DNA from: Leucobacter chromiireducens subsp. chromiireducens
Lineage (GTDB): Bacteria > Actinomycetota > Actinomycetes > Actinomycetales > Microbacteriaceae
Direction of reading: 5' to 3'
Assembly (NCBI RefSeq): GCF_016758255.1
Contig: NZ_QYAD01000004.1
Coordinates: 248,001-312,000 of the forward strand
DNA length: 64,000 nt
Shown: piece by piece, positions 38,789-63,176 of the stretch
Layout of the letters: the number at the start of each line of letters is the position of its first letter
How positions within the stretch are numbered: the first letter of the stretch is position 1
The notes under the pieces: model-generated
Databases searched by the model: none
Seen by the model: only the letters and a program-made list of their open reading frames with translations
What the model was told of the DNA's origin: nothing
Program-made: the position numbers and the translations under genes

Positions 38789-39586
38789 CTAGCGCGGCGC
38801 GGTTCCCGCAGCGATTGCACGCACGGTTTCCCCGAGCTGCGCAACACCGCCGTCGCGCAGCGCGCGCACGAACGCGGTACCGACGATGGCGCCGTCCGCG
38901 TACTCAAGGGCCCCGGCGACCTGCTCGGGCGTGGAGATCCCGATCCCCACGCAGGCAAGCTCGGCCCCCTGCGCACGAAGTCGTCCGGTGAGGCCACGAG
39001 CTGCCGCGTCAAGCTCCGCACGCTCTCCCGTGATGCCCATGGTCGACACGGTGTAGACAAAGCCCGTGCTCGACTCGGCAACGAGCGCGAGACGTTCATC
39101 GCTGGAGCTCGGCGCCGCCAGGAACACCCGGTCGAGGCCGACACGCTCCGACACCGCGATCCACTCGCCAGCGGCATCGGGGGTGATGTCCGGCGTGATG
39201 AGGCCAGCGCCGCCCGCGGCGGCAAGGTCCTCCGCGAAGCGCTCAACCCCGTACTGCATCACCGGGTTCCAGTAGGTCATCACGAGGACGGGCACGTCGA
39301 CGGCCTCACGCACGCGGCGCACGGCCTCGAACACGTGCGCAACGCGGAAGCCGCCCGCAAGAGCGGTCTGCGTGGCCTCCTGAATAATCAGTCCGTCCAT
39401 GACCGGATCGGAGTAGGGCAGGCCAAGCTCGAGCACATCTGCGCCCGCATTCGCCATCTCGATCGCCGCTGCGACGCTCGTATCGAGATCCGGGAAGCCG
39501 ACGGGGAGGTAGCCAATCAGCGCGCCAGCGCGCTCGGCCTTCGCGGCGCGGATCGCACGCTCGACCTGAGATTCGATCCCGCTCAT
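38789..39586 (-). CDS. trpA: tryptophan synthase alpha subunit
   Basis: 265 residues. Cleaves indole-3-glycerol phosphate to indole, which passes to TrpB. Catalytic Glu in [18 protein letters not shown] and catalytic Asp in YSDP region; the phosphate-binding loop is near [10 protein letters not shown]. Its start overlaps the trpB stop by four bases. Confidence 0.96.
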
Positions 39587-40854
39587 CCCTCGGCTCCTGC
39601 CTCGCCATCGAGCAGGCCAAAGTAGCGGCCCGCAGTTGCCATGTCCTTGTCGCCGCGCCCGGAGAGGCTGACCATCACGATCTGCTCCGGGCCGAGATCC
39701 TTCGCGATCCGCATCGCGCCAGCCAGCGCGTGAGCTGACTCGATCGCGGGAATGATGCCCTCGGTCTGGCTGAGCAGGCGCAGCGCCTGCATCGCCTCGT
39801 CGTCGGTCGCGGGAATGTAGCTCACACGGCCGATATCGGACAGCCAGGCATGCTCCGGACCAACGCCCGGGTAGTCGAGTCCGGCCGAAATCGAGTGCGA
39901 CTCGATCGTCTGCCCATCCTCGTCCTGCAGCACGTAGGTCTTGGCGCCGTGCAGGATGCCCGGCCGGCCGCGCTCGATGGACGCGGCGTGACGCTCGGTG
40001 TCGACACCGTCGCCCGCAGCCTCCACACCGTAGATCTTTACGTCCGCGTCATCGAGGTAGGCATCGAACATGCCAATGGCATTCGAGCCGCCGCCCACGC
40101 AGGCAACGACCGCGTCGGGCAGACGCCCCTCGCGTGCGAGCAGCTGGGCGCGAGCCTCCTCCGAGATGATCTTCTGGAAGTCGCGCACCATCGCGGGGAA
40201 CGGGTGCGGGCCCGCGGCGGTGCCAAAAATGTAGTTGGTGCGATCGACCGTGGCCACCCAGTCGCGATACGCCTCGTTGATGGCGTCCTTCAGCGTCCGT
40301 GAACCGGTGGTCACCGGAATCACCTCTGCGCCGAGCAGGCGCATGCGGGCCACGTTGAGAGCCTGACGCTCGGTGTCCACCTCGCCCATGTAGATCGTGC
40401 ACTCGAGACCGAAGAGAGCCGCTGCGGTCGCGGTCGCCACACCGTGCTGGCCGGCGCCGGTCTCCGCGATGACGCGCTTCTTGCCGAGGCGCTTCGTCAG
40501 CAGAGCCTGGCCGAGCACATTGTTGATCTTGTGCGAGCCGGTGTGGTTCAGGTCTTCGCGCTTGAGGTAGATTCGCGCGCCACCAGCGTGCGCGGCAAAG
40601 CGCGGCACCTCGGTGATCGGAGATGGGCGCCCCGCATAGCTCTCGAGGAGCTCAACGAGCTCGGCACGGAACTCGGGATCGACCTGCGCCTCGACGTATG
40701 CCGCCGTCAGCTCATCGATTGCTGCGATGAGCGATTCGGGCATGAACCGGCCGCCGAAGTCACCAAAGAACGGACCGTGCTGCTCGCGCAGGCTCGTCAC
40801 GGACTCCGATGCGGCCCCGGTGGGCGTCGTCGCTTCTGCGGGGTGATCTGTCAT
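39583..40854 (-). CDS. trpB: tryptophan synthase beta subunit
   Basis: 423 residues. PLP enzyme that joins indole and serine. Lys109 in HTGSHKIN holds [22 protein letters not shown] and [10 protein letters not shown] bind substrate and cofactor phosphate. It carries an N-terminal extension of about 25 residues before [11 protein letters not shown]. This is the operon-encoded partner of TrpA; a second, different trpB is at 58790. Confidence 0.95.
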
Positions 40855-41908: not shown

Positions 41909-42487
41909 CTAGCGGATATCCGCGGTGGGGTCGTCGCCGTCGCTCAGCGCGTCCCAGTCCGAGATGCGGTCGGGCGCGCCGCCGCGCGACTTTGCCGCCG
42001 ATCCCGCATCGTATTTGCGACCGCCGGTGACCCAACGCCCGCCCGTAATCGCGACGAGGACTCCCAGCAGCGCGGCAAGCACGCCCGCGGCGAGGCTGAC
42101 CCACGCCCACACGGACACCTGGCTCCACACCACCATGGTGGTGCTCGCGCCGCCGGCGATGCCGGTGAGCTCGGTGATGCGGCCGGAAACCGCGGAGAGG
42201 GGCGCCTGCAGCACATTGATCGTCAGCGCAGCGAGCCCCACGCCCAGCAGCGCGACGAGCACGCCCAACACGCGCCGGAAGATGGGCCCTGCGATCGTGA
42301 GCGCGAGGGCCGCCGCAACGATGGCGATCGCAACGGGCGAGAGCGCGGGGTTCAGCGCGTGGCCCGTGACCTTTTCGATGTCGTGGGTGCCGTCGAGCAT
42401 GAACGAGACCCAGGCCTGCGCGCCGGCCAGCAGGCCTGCGCCACCGACAATCGCGATCCCGCTTAGGGACAGCAGCTTCGGGCTCAT
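41909..42487 (-). CDS. Trp biosynthesis-associated membrane protein
   Basis: 192 residues with four membrane segments and a cytoplasmic tail ending SDWDALSDGDDPTADIR, the conserved tail of this family. Typical first segment GIAIVGGAGLLAGAQAWVSF. Found next to trpE in actinobacteria. Function is unknown. Its start overlaps the trpE stop by four bases. Confidence 0.88.
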   Translation of the reverse strand: MSPKLLSLSGIAIVGGAGLLAGAQAWVSFMLDGTHDIEKVTGHALNPALSPVAIAIVAAALALTIAGPIFRRVLGVLVALLGVGLAALTINVLQAPLSAVSGRITELTGIAGGASTTMVVWSQVSVWAWVSLAAGVLAALLGVLVAITGGRWVTGGRKYDAGSAAKSRGGAPDRISDWDALSDGDDPTADIR

Positions 42488-44052
42488 CGTGCAGACTCCT
42501 TCAGTTCGTGCAGCGTGTTGGCAATTGCGATGGCGCGCAGTGGGGCCGCGGCCTTACTGCGGCACTCGGCGTCCTCCGATTCGGGCACCGAGTCTGCGAC
42601 GATGCCGGCACCGGCCTGGACCATCGCAATGCCGTCCTTGATCGTTGCGGTGCGGATGGCGATCGCGAGGTCGGCTGCGCCGCCCAGGCCGAAGTAGCCA
42701 ACAACGCCGCCGTAGACGCCGCGCTGCACGGGCTCGAGCGCGTCGATGATCTCGAGAGCGCGCGGCTTCGGTGCGCCCGAGAGTGTGCCCGCGGGGAATG
42801 TGGCCTGGAACACGTCGATGGGGCTCTCCCCCTCGCGCAGCTGCCCCTCCACCGTCGACACAATGTGCATGATGTGGCTGAAGCGCTCGATCCGCATGAA
42901 CTCGGTCACCTCAACCGACGCGGGTTCGCAGGCACGCAACAGGTCGTTTCGTGCCAGGTCGACGAGCATGAGGTGCTCGGCACGCTCCTTCTCGTCGGCG
43001 AGGAGATCGCGCTCGTGCTGCTGATCCTCGTCAACCGTTGCGCCACGCGGCCGCGATCCCGCAATTGGATGCGTCATCACGTGACCGCTCTCCTGCACCG
43101 TGACGAGCGCCTCTGGGCTCGATCCCACGACCGCAAACGGGGCGCCGTCCGCGTCCTCGAGCTGCAGGAGGTAGAGGTAGGGGCTCGGGTTCAGGTGCCG
43201 CAGCACGCGGTAGACATCGAGCGGGTCTGCCGTGCACTCCTGGTCGAAACGCTGCGATGGCACCACCTGGAAGATATCGCCATCCACGATGTGGCGCTGC
43301 GCGACCTCGACCGCACGCAGGAACTCGGGAGTGCTCGTCAGCCGGCGCGGCGCGGGCTCTGCCTCGCGGTCGAATGAGCCGAGTGGCGAACTCACCGGGC
43401 GCGCGAGTGCCGCTTGGAGCGCGTCGAGCCTAGCCTGCGCATCCGCCCACTGATCGTCGGCGTGTGCGGCGGCTGCCCCGTCGGCGAGCACGCCGTCGTT
43501 GAGCACGTTTGCGAGCAGCACGACGCTTCCCTCACGGTGATCGATCACCACGAGTTCAGAGACGAAGCTCAGGCCCTGTGTGGGCAGCCCGGGGCCCTCG
43601 CTGGGGCCGTGCTCGAGCTTTTCGAACTGACGCACGGTCTCCCACCCGAGGTAGCCTACAAAGCCGCTGGCGAGCGGCGGGAGGCCGGGAACCTGCGGTG
43701 CACGCCAGCGCTCGTAGGCAGCCCGCAGCGCCTCGACCGGGCCGCGGTCAGCGACGCCGCCGGGCAGCAATCGCTCCTCGCTCACATCACTTCCGGGCGC
43801 GGGCGCCCAGTGCGCCCGACCGCCGCGCTCGCCGAGCACGCCGAAGCTGCCAGCGCCGACAAAGCTAAAGCGGGTCCACACTCCGCCCTGCTCGGCAGAT
43901 TCGAGCAGGAAGGTGCCCGGCCGCGAGTCCGCGACCTTGCGGTAGATGCTCACCGGGGTATCCGCGTCGGCGAACACCTCTCGGCAGACGGGGATCACGG
44001 CGTGGGTGGATCGCGCGGCGTCGAATGCTGCGCGCGTGGTCGTCAGGGTCAC
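42484..44052 (-). CDS. trpE: anthranilate synthase component I
   Basis: 522 residues. Makes anthranilate from chorismate with TrpG (not in the window). Chorismate-binding core: PIAGSRPRGAT, DLARNDLLRA, GTLSGAPKPRALEII and GIAMVQAGAGIVADS. The N-terminal tryptophan feedback site (LLESAEQGGVWTRFSFVG) is present. The GTG start is six bases after TAGGCT, leaving no room for a leader peptide or attenuator at the head of this operon. Confidence 0.96.
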   Translation of the reverse strand: MTLTTTRAAFDAARSTHAVIPVCREVFADADTPVSIYRKVADSRPGTFLLESAEQGGVWTRFSFVGAGSFGVLGERGGRAHWAPAPGSDVSEERLLPGGVADRGPVEALRAAYERWRAPQVPGLPPLASGFVGYLGWETVRQFEKLEHGPSEGPGLPTQGLSFVSELVVIDHREGSVVLLANVLNDGVLADGAAAAHADDQWADAQARLDALQAALARPVSSPLGSFDREAEPAPRRLTSTPEFLRAVEVAQRHIVDGDIFQVVPSQRFDQECTADPLDVYRVLRHLNPSPYLYLLQLEDADGAPFAVVGSSPEALVTVQESGHVMTHPIAGSRPRGATVDEDQQHERDLLADEKERAEHLMLVDLARNDLLRACEPASVEVTEFMRIERFSHIMHIVSTVEGQLREGESPIDVFQATFPAGTLSGAPKPRALEIIDALEPVQRGVYGGVVGYFGLGGAADLAIAIRTATIKDGIAMVQAGAGIVADSVPESEDAECRSKAAAPLRAIAIANTLHELKESAR

Positions 44053-58600: not shown

Positions 58601-58644
58601 GCGAGGTCCCCCGACGTCGGCACAGCGCAGTGCGCGGATGGTGC

Positions 58645-58650
58645 TACACT
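58645..58650 (+). promoter_or_regulatory. -10 box of the trpL-trpB2 unit
   Basis: TACACT, six bases, then the leader ATG at 58657. It is the plus-strand promoter of the divergent region. Confidence 0.55.
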
Positions 58651-58656
58651 CGCCCC

Positions 58657-58689
58657 ATGCACATCGTGATTCAGTGGTGGGCCGCCTAG
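58657..58689 (+). CDS. trpL: tryptophan leader peptide
   Basis: A 10-residue frame, [10 protein letters not shown], ending in TAG. The two Trp codons TGG TGG at 58675-58680 sit just before the attenuator hairpins, the arrangement of classical ribosome-mediated attenuation. When Trp-tRNA is short the ribosome would stall on the TGGs and allow read-through into the trpB gene. Confidence 0.85.
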
Positions 58690-58751
58690 GGCGGTCACTC
58701 TTCACGCATCTGCATGCACACGACACCGCCTCTCGGAGGCGGTGTTTTTTT
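58682..58751 (+). promoter_or_regulatory. tryptophan attenuator with terminator
   Basis: Segment 1, CCGCC (58682-58686), pairs with segment 2, GGCGG (58690-58694). Segment 2 (GGCGGT) can instead pair with ACCGCC (58725-58730), the 5' arm of the terminator. The terminator is ACACCGCCTC / GAGGCGGTGT with loop TCG (58723-58745), followed by seven Ts (58745-58751). A ribosome stalled at 58675-58680 covers segment 1, so segment 2 pairs with segment 3 and transcription continues. Confidence 0.85.
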
Positions 58752-58789
58752 GTCTCACGAGCGGCGCAACGACGCAAAGGATCCCTCCC

Positions 58790-59998
58790 ATGACACAGTC
58801 CACGATTTCCCCGTACCGCGCGGATGAGGCCGGCTACTTCGGCGAGTTCGGCGGTGCGCCGCTGCCCCCGTTCCTGGTTGAGCCGATCGCTGAGGTGGCA
58901 CGCGAGTACGCTGCGGCGAGCGCGGATCCCGCGTTCCAGGAGGAGTATCAGGCGCTGCTCTCGAAGTACGTGGGCCGTCCGTCGCTCCTGTACTTCGCGG
59001 AGAATCTCACCCGCGAGCTCGGCGGGGCGAAGATTTACCTGAAGCGTGAGGATTTGAACCACACGGGCGCGCACAAGATCAATCACTGCCTGGGCGAGGC
59101 TCTGCTTGCGAAGCGAATGGGCAAGACGAAGCTCATCGCGGAGACGGGTGCGGGGCAGCACGGTGTCGCCCTGGCCACCGCGGCGGCGCTCGTTGGGCTT
59201 GAGTGCGACATCCACATGGGCGCGATCGACGTGGCGAAGCAGCACCCCAATGTGGTGCGCATGGAGCTGCTCGGCGCGAAGGTCGTGTCGGTTGAGGAGG
59301 GCGGGAAGACACTCAAGGAGGCCGTCGACTCAGCGTTCGCGGTGTACGCGGCGCACCCTGAGGAGTACTTCTTCGCGATCGGCTCCGTCGTGGGCCCGCA
59401 CCCGTACCCGTCGATGGTGCGCGATTTCCAGTCAGTCGTGGGCCGCGAGGCTCGCGCGCAGGTGCTCGAGGCCGAGGGGAAGCTGCCCGACGTGCTTGTG
59501 GCTGCCGTGGGCGGTGGCTCGAACGCGATGGGACTGTTCGATGCTTTCCTGGAGGACGAGTCGGTGCGCATCATTGGTGTGGAACCGGCGGGCGAGGGTC
59601 TCGATGGGGATCGCCACGCGGCGACCATGACTCTCGGCACTCCCGGCATGCTGCACGGTATGCACACGAAGGTGTTGCAGGACGCGAACGGCGAGCCGTC
59701 CCCCGTGCACTCGATCGCATCCGGGATCGACTACCCGGGCGTGGGCCCGCAGCACGCCCACCTCGAGCAGCTCGGCCGCGCGGAGTACGTGACCGCCTCA
59801 GACGCGGAGACGCTCGAGGCGTTCCAGCTCCTCACTCGGAAGGAGGGCATCATCCCCGCCCTTGAGTCGGCCCACGCGGTTGCGCACGCGATCAAGCTGG
59901 CGCCCACGCTGCCCGCCGACGCGGTGATCATCGCGAACCTGTCGGGGCGCGGCGATAAGGACGTGGACTTCGTCGCGGAGCGCCTGCGCGGGGCCTGA
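58790..59998 (+). CDS. second tryptophan synthase beta chain
   Basis: 402 residues. PLP Lys96 is in [29 protein letters not shown] and [10 protein letters not shown] are intact, so the enzyme should be active. It differs widely from the operon Trp[14 protein letters not shown] at the start against [23 protein letters not shown] in the middle, and no N-terminal extension. The HPNV form resembles proteobacterial TrpB. There is no trpA beside it. It may pair with the operon TrpA or make Trp from free indole. Confidence 0.93.
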
Positions 59999-60064: not shown

Positions 60065-61534
60065 CTAGCGTTCGGGGTTCGGAACGGGGATCGTCCCCGT
60101 AACGCTCAGCTCGTCCTCCCAGCAGCTGATCCCCGCGACGTTGGGCAGCCGATCGCGGGTGAACACCGGGTCGCGGCCCTCGCGGCGCTGGGCGGCGTAG
60201 TCGCGCATGAGGCGGAACACGAGCCCGGACAGCAGCGCTATCGCAACCAGGTTGACGAGCGCCATGACGCCCATGATCGCGTCAGCGGTGTTCCAGATGA
60301 GGTCCGCGGACGCGACCGCGCCCACGAAGATCGCGACCACCGCGAGCACCCGGTAGCCGAACAGCACTCGCGGGCGGGTCGAGATGAACTCGATGTTCGA
60401 TTCGCCGTAGTAGTAGTTGCCGAGGATCGAGCTGAACGCCAGCAGGAAGATGATGACGCTGAGCAGCGCCCCCGCCCACGGGCCGAGCGTGCCCTCGATC
60501 GCGTTTTGCGTAAGGCCGATCCCGCGCGTGGCCGAGCTCAGGTCGGGCGCCGTCACGAGGATGATGAACGCGGTGATCGAGCAGATGAGGAAGGTGTCGA
60601 AGTAGACGCCGAGAGTCTGCACGAGACCCTGCTTCACGGGGTGCGTGACCGCGGCGGAGGCGCCCGCGTTGGGCGCAGACCCCAGCCCCGCCTCGTTCGA
60701 GAACATGCCGCGCTTGATGCCGGTCATGAGGATCATGCCGAACGCGGCGCCCACCACCTCGTTGAACCCGAACGCTTGCGAGTAGATCGAGGCGAACACA
60801 CCGGGCAGCTGATCGATGTTGAGGAACACGATCACGAGGCCGAGCAGGAGGTAGGCGAGCGCCATTGCGGGCACGACCGCCTGCGTGACGCTGGCGATAC
60901 GGCGCACACCGCCGAACACGACGAGGCCCGTGAGCACCGCGAGCACTGCCCCGATGACGAGCGTGGCCCAGCCGGAGTTCTCGGGCGAGAGCCCGGCAGT
61001 CGAGGTCAACGTTGCGCTGATCGTGTTCGCCTGCAGGGACGAGAACGCGAACGGGAAGCAGACGATGAGAATCCCCGCGAAGAGCGTACCCATCCAGCGG
61101 GATCGGAGCCCGTGGAGCATGTAGTAGGCGGGGCCACCGCGGAAGCCATCCGCGTCGCGCACCTTGAAGAGCTGCCCGAGGGTGGACTCGACAAAGCTTG
61201 ACGCGCCACCGATAAAGGCCATGGTCCACATCCAAAACACCGCGCCGGGGCCACCGATCGCGATCGCGGTGCCGACGCCCGCGATGTTGCCGACGCCAAC
61301 GCGCGAGGCCGCGGAGATCGTAAACGCCTGGAACGCGGACACCGACTGCGGGGTGCCGTCGCTTTTCACCGGCGTCTTGTCGGTCAGCGTGCGGAACATC
61401 TCGGGCAGCCACCGGAACTGCACGACCCCGGAGCGGAGCGTGAAGTACAGTCCGAGCACGACGAGCACGGGCAGCACCGCCCACGTCCACAGCCGGTCTC
61501 CTGCTGCGAGCACGAAGTCGTTGATTGCGTCCAT
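60065..61534 (-). CDS. alanine/glycine:sodium (AGCS) symporter
   Basis: 489 residues with about ten membrane segments. AGCS signatures: VGVGNIAGVGTAIAIGGPGA and GMFSNEAGLGSAPNAGASA. Imports small neutral amino acids with sodium. The ATG is six bases after TACCCT. A soluble C-terminal tail of about 40 residues has one Cys-Trp pair and no known role. It lies next to a secreted peptidase, which could supply its substrates. Confidence 0.92.
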   Translation of the reverse strand: MDAINDFVLAAGDRLWTWAVLPVLVVLGLYFTLRSGVVQFRWLPEMFRTLTDKTPVKSDGTPQSVSAFQAFTISAASRVGVGNIAGVGTAIAIGGPGAVFWMWTMAFIGGASSFVESTLGQLFKVRDADGFRGGPAYYMLHGLRSRWMGTLFAGILIVCFPFAFSSLQANTISATLTSTAGLSPENSGWATLVIGAVLAVLTGLVVFGGVRRIASVTQAVVPAMALAYLLLGLVIVFLNIDQLPGVFASIYSQAFGFNEVVGAAFGMILMTGIKRGMFSNEAGLGSAPNAGASAAVTHPVKQGLVQTLGVYFDTFLICSITAFIILVTAPDLSSATRGIGLTQNAIEGTLGPWAGALLSVIIFLLAFSSILGNYYYGESNIEFISTRPRVLFGYRVLAVVAIFVGAVASADLIWNTADAIMGVMALVNLVAIALLSGLVFRLMRDYAAQRREGRDPVFTRDRLPNVAGISCWEDELSVTGTIPVPNPER

Positions 61535-61540
61535 GGGATC

Positions 61541-61546
61541 AGGGTA
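61541..61546 (-). promoter_or_regulatory. -10 box, leaderless start of the AGCS gene
   Basis: TACCCT, six bases, then ATG at 61534. Confidence 0.55.
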
Positions 61547-61616
61547 TTTCACCCTGGTCCGTGTGGCGCGGATTGGCCGCGGCCGCGGCGCTGCCGATTC
61601 CGCCGCGCGCCCGGCG

Positions 61617-63176
61617 CTAATTCGCCGGGCAGACCGTTCCCTTTGCGGGCAGCTCACCCTCCAGAAGGAACGCCGTGGTCGCCTGATCCGCGCAGCTCGA
61701 GCGATCGGTGAACGACGCGCCGTGGCCGTGCCCCTCCACGGTGAGGAAGCGGGTGTTGCCCATCTGCATGGCAAGGTTCTTGCCGTTCGCAAACGGGGTG
61801 GCGTGATCGCCCTCGATCCCAATCACGAGCATCGTCTGGTCATCCGGAGCAGAGAACGCTTCGAGGTCGGTGCCACTCTCCGGGAGCGCATCGCAGGAGA
61901 CGTCGGCGAAGGGCCGCAGCACATCGTCGGTGATCTCGGGACCACCGAGGAGGCGCGGCACGCCCTGATCCTCAATGTGGTTCAGCAGCTCCACGATGCC
62001 CGGATCGTCGGGAAGCGAGTGACACCGGACAATCAGTCCGCTCGAGCTGACCGCGGCGCCACCATCGGACATCGCCGCAACGACCGCATCAACCTGCGCG
62101 GGATCGCGCTCGAGCAGCCCCGCCACATGATTGAGCACGGTGACGCGCGTGAGCGCACGGCCGTACAGGCCGGTCATGAGGTACCCGCTCAGCGTGTCGC
62201 CGGTCACCTCGGTGCCGTCGCTCGCGACAATCGGCTGCTCGGTGAGAGCGGCCTGCGCTGCGAGCAGCTCATCCTCGGAGGTGATCGGGCACGCCGTCAC
62301 GCCGGGCGTCTCCTCACAATCCTCGACCATCGCGACGAGCTCGGTAGCCATCGCGACCGCTTGATCGAAGGTGCCAGCCGGCGCGGCCCAGGTCTCGTCG
62401 GGCGCGCTATCGAGCACCATGCGCCCCACACGCTCCGGGAAGAGTGTCGAGTAGGTGGCGCCGAGAATCGTGCCGTAGGAGTAGCCCAGGTAGTTCATGC
62501 GGTCCTCGCCCTGCAGCGCGCGCAACAGATCCATGTCGCGCGCCACCTGCGAAGTGCCCATCGTGCGCGCCAAGGGGAAGTCGTCCGCGCACACCGCGAG
62601 CTGCACCTCGAAGATGCTCGACACCGGCTCGCAGTCGACCGCGTCACTTCGACCGGTGCCCCGCGGATCGAAACCGATCACGTCGTAGTGGGCGAGCAGT
62701 TCCTGAACCCCGGGCGACGCGGTCTGGTTCCAGGTGTAGTCAATGCCGGAGCCGCCCGGGCCGCCCGGGTTGCCGAACAGCGCACCGAGCTTCGTTGGCC
62801 CGGTCGCGGGCACGCGCACTACGGCGAGTTCGATCGTGTCGTGATTGCGCGGGGTGTTCCAGTCGAGCGGGGCCTCCACGGTGGCGCACTCGAACGTGTC
62901 GACGGGCGCCCCGAGATCGCCCACACGCTTCGCCGTCTCGGCGTCCAGGCCAAAGTCGTCACCGCACTCGCCCAACTCAATCGTCTGCGCGTAGGCGCCA
63001 GGGAACGTCTCGCTCTGCAGCGCGCTCGCGGTCCGCTCCACCGGCGCACACGCGGTCAGCAGTGCGAGCGCGGCGACCAGCCCCGCGCTCGCCGCAGTGA
63101 GCAGCGTTCGGCCCCGAAGCCGGCGGTCGCCCGGCGCGTGCGGTGCGCGCTTGCGGCTCCTCGTGCGTGCAGACAT
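61617..63176 (-). CDS. secreted alpha/beta-hydrolase, tripeptidyl-aminopeptidase type
   Basis: 519 residues. Signal peptide with lipobox LLTAC (Cys43). The alpha/beta fold has oxyanion region GNPGGPGGSGIDY, nucleophile Ser233 in LGYSYGT, and the C-terminal TAP-like part with GIEGDHATPFAN and the final His in EGHGHGASF. Enzymes of this family release peptides from the N-terminus outside the cell. AGGA precedes the ATG. Lgt, encoded at 37753-38706, should modify it. The neighbour is an amino acid symporter. Confidence 0.9.
   Translation of the reverse strand: MSARTRSRKRAPHAPGDRRLRGRTLLTAASAGLVAALALLTACAPVERTASALQSETFPGAYAQTIELGECGDDFGLDAETAKRVGDLGAPVDTFECATVEAPLDWNTPRNHDTIELAVVRVPATGPTKLGALFGNPGGPGGSGIDYTWNQTASPGVQELLAHYDVIGFDPRGTGRSDAVDCEPVSSIFEVQLAVCADDFPLARTMGTSQVARDMDLLRALQGEDRMNYLGYSYGTILGATYSTLFPERVGRMVLDSAPDETWAAPAGTFDQAVAMATELVAMVEDCEETPGVTACPITSEDELLAAQAALTEQPIVASDGTEVTGDTLSGYLMTGLYGRALTRVTVLNHVAGLLERDPAQVDAVVAAMSDGGAAVSSSGLIVRCHSLPDDPGIVELLNHIEDQGVPRLLGGPEITDDVLRPFADVSCDALPESGTDLEAFSAPDDQTMLVIGIEGDHATPFANGKNLAMQMGNTRFLTVEGHGHGASFTDRSSCADQATTAFLLEGELPAKGTVCPAN

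Follow-up and report, generated by a model that had tools for sequence, protein, structure and literature searches.

Several described systems share a part of the arrangement reported here. Transcription attenuators were published for trpS and for trp operons of Actinobacteria (PMC1262725), and in Streptomyces lividans they were described for the monocistronic genes trpE and trpS (PMC8079986). In Corynebacterium diphtheriae, classical Trp attenuators were predicted in front of trpB1EDGC and trpB2A (PMC1262725; PMC5784534), and the trpRBA genes of Chlamydia trachomatis represent a Trp-regulated TrpB tied to external indole (PMC7755916, PMC4042155). Genes encoding TrpB2 and other TrpB proteins outside operons were described (PMC1854888), including an orphan trpB of Mycoplasma californicum, for which the use of indole was proposed (PMC4081997). 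The plTrpB of Pelodictyon luteolum is a natural stand-alone TrpB1 encoded away from trpA (PMC11917138). Additionally, the use of external indole through TrpB was reported in Bifidobacterium (PMC11085991), and trpA and trpB were reported in a part of groundwater Patescibacteria bins (PMC8672522). The last paper was the only open-licence match for Leucobacter together with trpB, and no description of an attenuated lone trpB was found in the open-licence literature.

The locus studied here lies in a 64,000-nucleotide stretch of the Leucobacter chromiireducens subsp. chromiireducens genome, which is referred to as the window. It resembles the trpL1-trpE and trpL2-trpS units of S. lividans in having a monocistronic target, a putatively leaderless leader and two hairpins; however, the targets in S. 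lividans are anthranilate synthase or a tRNA synthetase rather than a lone trpB, and, unlike the leader in the window, trpL2 encodes only one Trp and lacks a U-rich stretch (PMC8079986). The C. diphtheriae operons likewise have a predicted classical attenuator before trpB, but that trpB heads a multi-gene operon (PMC1262725; PMC5784534), whereas the C. trachomatis trpB has trpA beside it and a TrpR repressor (PMC7755916, PMC4042155). The location outside an operon is shared with the TrpB2 and orphan trpB genes, yet the window protein is of the TrpB1 type, and the excerpts available for those genes mention no attenuator (PMC1854888, PMC4081997). As in P. luteolum, a TrpB1 is encoded away from trpA; however, plTrpB was described as holding the LBCA-Res6 residues, when the window protein has one of the six (PMC11917138). 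The locus is thus a known sensor type on an unusual target, a lone trpB.

The lone trpB extends on the plus strand from the ATG at 58790 to the TGA at 59998 and encodes a TrpB1-type protein of 402 amino acids. The protein matched TIGR00263 with 567.1 bits (curated cut-off 392.45, E 1.8e-170), and its homology, as judged from sequence, is beyond doubt. The nearest named relatives by lone trpB were Leucobacter species of the family Microbacteriaceae, with 96% identity in L. chromiireducens. The gene is followed by a convergent gene (60065-61822), which we take to be a putative symporter. The sequence-only reading had described an orphan trpB that lacks trpA. This held for the immediate surroundings, where no trpA stands beside the gene, but not for the window as a whole, since both a trpA (38789..39586, the only one matched in the genome) and an adjoining second, canonical trpB (39583..40854, 52% identical to the lone TrpB at the protein level) were located on the minus strand. 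Therefore, the lone trpB is an extra copy and not the only trpB of the genome. The canonical genes belong to a minus-strand cluster in the order hisG, hisF, hisI, trpE (42484..44052), a membrane protein, trpC, trpB and trpA, about 19 kb from the lone trpB. The names in this cluster, that of trpE included, were assigned by sequence likeness, except for TrpA, TrpB, IGPS and TrpD, which were searched; the trpD of this 3.2 Mb genome was matched outside the window.

The leader of the lone trpB was analyzed on the plus strand between 58642 and 58752. An extended -10 promoter element, TGCTACACT, occupies 58642..58650 and is followed by a reading frame for a leader peptide of 10 residues (ATG at 58657 to TAG at 58689) with tandem TGG codons at 58675-58680. 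Segments 1 and 2 form hairpin 1:2 (58680-58686 with 58690-58696), the loop of which is the stop codon of the leader. The alternative antiterminator 2:3 pairs 58690-58695 with 58725-58730, and the terminator 3:4 consists of 10 bp (58723-58732 with 58736-58745) followed by a run of seven T at 58745-58751. All these elements, from the -10 box to the seven Ts, had been read from the letters before and were recovered at the same positions. The leader RNA folded with a z-score of -3.45, and none of 200 shuffles was equally good. A mechanical scan for a short open reading frame with tandem Trp codons (WW ORF) followed by a terminator returned a single site in the 64 kb, namely this one, and no sites in 100 windows simulated from the dinucleotide frequencies of the window. 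Rfam contains a Trp leader family. A search of the whole window with Rfam release 15 at the gathering score gave two tRNAs only and no Trp leader, and a search of 201 bases at an E-value of 1 gave three sub-threshold sRNA matches, again with no Trp leader; the best of these was RcsR1 with 21.9 of 60 bits. Altogether, the leader of the lone trpB carries the sequence features of a classical ribosome-mediated Trp attenuator.

It was proposed that, when Trp-tRNA is sufficient, the ribosome would reach the stop codon in the 1:2 loop and cover segment 2, so that terminator 3:4 could form and transcription would stop. When Trp-tRNA is too scarce, the ribosome would stall at the TGG pair and occupy segment 1, leaving segment 2 to pair with the newly made segment 3, and the polymerase would read into trpB. 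The folding of the leader with and without a ribosome was in partial agreement with this scheme. The states differed in RNA cut at segment 3, where two ribosome positions were covered: the 2:3 helix formed with a probability of 0.99 when the ribosome was placed on the second Trp codon and was absent (0.00) when it was placed at the stop codon. They did not differ in the full-length RNA with a masked ribosome, where terminator 3:4 won in every ribosome state with a probability of 1.00. The switch would therefore have to be kinetic, with the decision made during transcription. Read-through of the terminator upon Trp starvation is what this architecture predicts, in keeping with the way ribosome-mediated attenuation commonly operates.

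Given the position of TGCTACACT, transcription would be expected to begin at the ATG of the leader (58657) or directly beside it. The same spacing recurred in relatives. A TAnnnT element ending 5-8 nt before the leader start was present in 31 of 38 leaders when the script's choice of start was used, in 37 of 38 after seven starts were moved upstream by hand, and in all 38 when any in-frame upstream start was allowed; under this last rule, shuffled upstream sequences gave 2.0 on average and 7 at most. A further set of 47 loci, one of which (L164) gave no leader, showed the spacing in 42 of 46 leaders of relatives under the last rule. Such a distance between the -10 element and the ATG leaves no room for a ribosome-binding site; hence, the RNA from which the leader peptide is read is probably leaderless, as was described for trpL1 and trpL2 of S. 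lividans (PMC8079986).

The conservation of the module was then assessed in 54 genomes of the genus, all of which gave a TrpB match of some kind, a few of them weak only. A lone-type trpB was found in 35 genomes, intact in 34 (80-100% identical) and in two pieces in one (G018); it was not found in the other 19, some of which are incomplete. When the upstream regions of all 35 copies were inspected, a WW leader was present in 34. The exception was G003 (locus L088), where the terminator was kept and the leader peptide together with segment 1 was replaced by foreign sequence. A transposase-like reading frame (L088:2915-3889), presumably an IS transposase, abuts the lone trpB unit in this genome. 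This natural disruption of the leader should free trpB from Trp control. In G018 (locus L121), an intact attenuator is followed by lone trpB as two overlapping pieces in different frames, which reflects either a mutation or a sequencing error.

The leaders were extracted from 39 loci, and L088 (no WW), L085 and L117 (duplicates) were left out. The resulting alignment of 36 leaders comprised 32 from the genus and one each from Boudabousia, an Actinomycetaceae bin, Gleimia and Micrococcus lylae; L090, L095, L097 and L104 were trimmed at the 3' end beforehand. As rows lacking WW were excluded, the WW is invariant in this alignment by selection. Helices 1:2 and 3:4 were paired in 93.8% of 576 cells, far above the values for slid registers. 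Double changes were counted in 17 cells of these helices and affected 8 base pairs; the shuffle mean was 5.0, and none of 500 shuffles was as high. Helix 2:3 was paired in 86.9% of 252 cells and showed no covariation beyond shuffles in the 36 leaders. In all 36, the leader stop codon was located inside the 1:2 loop and two codons past the WW. An ATGC at the leader start with a partner GCAT in the spacer was recorded in 26 of the 32 genus leaders (shuffle mean 2.2), and this pairing could close the 1:2 arm over the start codon. The idea of classical attenuation had thus been exposed to comparison with relatives and withstood it, both in the WW pair of 34 of the 35 genus copies and in the compensatory changes of helices 1:2 and 3:4.

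A leader model (R1) was used to look for the same attenuator type elsewhere. In the window's own genome, strict filters left one match, at the lone trpB, and none at the main trp cluster, so no such switch was detected before the trpE cluster. At an E-value of 0.01, the model matched 30 of the 299 genomes of the family and 63 of the 394 of the class, and 59 loci were kept. Among the loci inspected, those upstream of lone trpB were from genus members together with L128, L129 and L136. Other loci of the family (L130-L135 and L137-L145) preceded a divergent gene resembling trpE, with 30-33% identity to the window TrpE over the matched stretch, and eight of the inspected loci L153-L181 preceded a Trp/Tyr-type tRNA synthetase. 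Pfam searches on L128, L131, L138, L153 and L174 agreed with the calls of the downstream genes. The trpE-like and synthetase targets are in line with the attenuators published for trp operons, trpE and trpS. Seven loci (L146-L152, E 2e-4 to 0.01) had no trp gene nearby and were treated as chance matches; six of them had no short WW ORF, L146 had WW ORFs downstream of the match only, and the reading frames downstream of L149 and L151 gave no Pfam family at 1e-10.

Further, the lone TrpB was compared with its relatives. The lone set consisted of the best 80 relatives listed and 30 genus loci including that of the window, 110 loci in total, which are not all independent, since L004-L015 appear to be conspecific with some of the genus loci. 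Two TrpA queries at E 1e-5 found trpA within the flanks of none of the 110 loci, where the genus loci cover about 1.5 kb on each side and, of the 80 loci L004-L083, 17 are truncated. The same feature was present in 14 of 16 canonical control loci, L187 and L207, which are labelled canonical, being those without. A maximum-likelihood tree was built from a hand-picked sample of 44 lone and 16 canonical genes. All 44 lone TrpBs were placed on one side of a branch with 100/100 support and the 16 canonical ones on the other, a separation that arises partly by construction, as similarity to the window protein was the criterion for collecting the lone proteins. The tree shows a separation from the sampled canonical TrpBs rather than one clade of all lone TrpBs. 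The lone proteins in the tree came from Actinobacteria, Patescibacteria-group bins and Proteobacteria, with single bins of Spirochaetota, Bacteroidota and Planctomycetota; among the Patescibacteria-group bins, the lineage was checked for Nomurabacteria. Collections of plasmids and phages also contained TrpB relatives (116 and 17 records, respectively), and those listed were 56-62.5% identical.

The catalytic positions K87, E109, Q114, H115, D305 and S377 were kept in 44 of 44 lone TrpBs, and K167 in 43. The TrpB1 type is marked by K162 and D300 in Pyrococcus furiosus numbering, and an Arg at D300 marks TrpB2 (PMC1854888). With K167 and D305, both present in the window protein, taken as the equivalents of K162 and D300 by a number match assigned in this analysis, the protein is classified by its residues as TrpB1 and not TrpB2. 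A simple conservation rule yielded 16 positions that split the lone from the canonical set, and we assume that some of them lie near the TrpB active site. The residues N171 and R175, kept in 16 of 16 canonical proteins, were changed in all 44 lone ones, N171 being replaced by Asp and R175 being lost; E172 was replaced by Ser in 42 of 44. R175 is taken here to be a TrpA contact residue, although nothing on this role was found in the literature examined for TrpA-contact residues. Neither an adjacent trpA nor N171 nor R175, the features used here for a TrpA-coupled TrpB, was found for the lone TrpB. In PMC5573416, beta-N171 is located at the alpha-beta interface and paired with alpha-D56, and an Asp at position 171 should repel the latter. 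The six residues of Res6 (E36, E42, T53, S187, A279 and M280) were linked to stand-alone activity in LBCA and plTrpB (PMC11917138). This signature was tried and rejected for the window protein, which has A, Q, S, S, M and H at these positions, that is one of six (S187), under a chain-to-paper offset assigned in this analysis. The TrpA independence of the lone TrpB would therefore rest on other grounds, and from the interface changes we infer that it no longer docks to TrpA.

The genomes of carriers outside the genus were searched for the rest of the pathway. Of the 18 carriers tested, seven gave no TrpA match. Two of these are Gleimia coleocanis and an Actinomycetaceae bin, and the other five are bins of 0.6-1.0 Mb, of which four are titled Parcubacteria, Nomurabacteria or Paceibacterota and one, L026, falls among these on the tree. 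In the TrpD test, which covered 17 of the 18 carriers and the genome of the window, no match over the cut-off was obtained in the same seven carriers, and two of them gave weak matches below it. IGPS was not matched in the five small bins, where the absence of a gene is weak evidence since these are metagenome bins of 0.6-1.0 Mb. The two Actinomycetaceae among the seven (G057 and G060) kept an IGPS gene (PF00218) and are also those with the weak TrpD matches. A single trpB per genome and a WW ORF before it were found in all seven, and among the 11 carriers with TrpA a WW ORF was found in three (L018, L040 and L082).

Six Patescibacteria-type bins of 0.5-1.0 Mb (L021, L025, L026, L029, L032 and L036) carried a lone trpB with a WW ORF. 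The sequences of their leaders were unlike the actinobacterial ones; a hairpin could be drawn after the WW, and in most of the six a hairpin was visible by eye before a T-run. The leaders folded 2.7 to 4.9 standard deviations below mononucleotide shuffles. Among the best 80 relatives listed, 24 had a WW ORF within 400 nt, eleven of them titled Leucobacter. For these 24, a stem finder applied to L014-L083 gave no terminator at L025, L040 and L082 and a distant one only at L062. Most proteobacterial loci among L034-L083 had a lone trpB with no WW leader within 400 nt.

TrpA was present in 51 of the 54 genus genomes, and thus salvage would not be the only route to Trp there. One genus genome (G015) had the lone TrpB with TrpA and canonical TrpB unmatched; as the assembly consists of 110 contigs, the missing trpA and trpB are possibly an assembly gap. 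Tryptophanase was unmatched in 53 of the 54 genomes and the one match was below the family cut-off, when the profile did match the E. coli control. Therefore, indole would come from outside the cell or from leakage.

Taken together, it is quite likely that the lone trpB is a monocistronic gene for a TrpA-independent TrpB that uses free indole and serine under Trp shortage and is controlled by classical, probably leaderless Trp attenuation. The enzyme would join free indole with serine to form Trp without docking to TrpA, and the cell short of Trp would use indole released by neighbours or leaked from its own pathway. The sequence-only reading had suggested a scavenging or reserve enzyme for indole plus serine, and this putative function gained weight from the loss of the interface residues and from the lone TrpB being the sole TrpB in the 7 of 18 carriers with no TrpA match and TrpD below the cut-off. 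The salvage role is made credible by the carriers that gave neither a TrpA match nor a TrpD match over the cut-off, and it is considered likely.

The lone TrpB might instead work with the canonical TrpA as an isozyme for starvation and supply extra beta subunits to the ordinary pathway when Trp is short. Such a role would fit the genome of the window, where trpA, trpC and trpD were matched, and the 51 genus genomes with TrpA, but all 44 lone TrpBs lack both N171 and R175, the Asp at 171 would face alpha-D56 (judging from PMC5573416), and 7 of 18 tested carriers outside the genus gave no TrpA match. We regard this isozyme as unlikely. A somewhat smaller probability is given to a TrpB-derived PLP beta-replacement enzyme that accepts another nucleophile, an indole analogue or other amine, in a Trp-controlled secondary pathway. 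The conservation of K87, E109, Q114, H115, D305 and S377 in all 44 lone proteins argues against it, as does the Trp sensor, which makes most sense with Trp as the product, and the seven genomes without a TrpA match in which this is the sole TrpB. The 16 positions separating the lone from the canonical set speak for such an enzyme, and a linked pathway is possible, as the neighbours outside the genus were compared with window genes and by reading frame length only.

Finally, the attenuator and trpB could be remnants of a trp operon acquired by transfer, without a function today. Predicted attenuators do precede trpB1EDGC and trpB2A in C. diphtheriae (PMC1262725), and 19 of the 54 genomes of the genus, incomplete ones among them, gave no copy of the gene; in addition, the G018 copy is split in two, and the leader in G003 is cut by the transposase-like reading frame. 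A remnant is nevertheless very improbable, given 33 other genus genomes with an intact gene at 80-97% identity, the covarying hairpins and the WW leader in 34 of 35 copies.

The reading preferred here, an attenuated TrpA-independent TrpB for the salvage of indole, may extend beyond Leucobacter. On balance, we lean slightly towards a cross-phylum group of TrpA-independent TrpB1 enzymes, so far unnamed, that would travel as a one-gene indole-salvage cassette; in a part of the group, the cassette would include a leaderless Trp attenuator of its own. For Gleimia and the tiny-genome Patescibacteria, this enzyme would be the last remaining step to Trp, tying the cells to the indole of their neighbours. 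The locus would offer a compact example in which a starvation sensor directly controls an enzyme of nutrient salvage. The lone group is also a natural set of TrpBs that has apparently departed from TrpA and may inform how dependence on an allosteric subunit is gained or lost. If the proposal is true, an attenuated lone trpB would be a genomic marker of indole dependence, and it could be used to predict cross-feeding in communities, including those with uncultured Patescibacteria.
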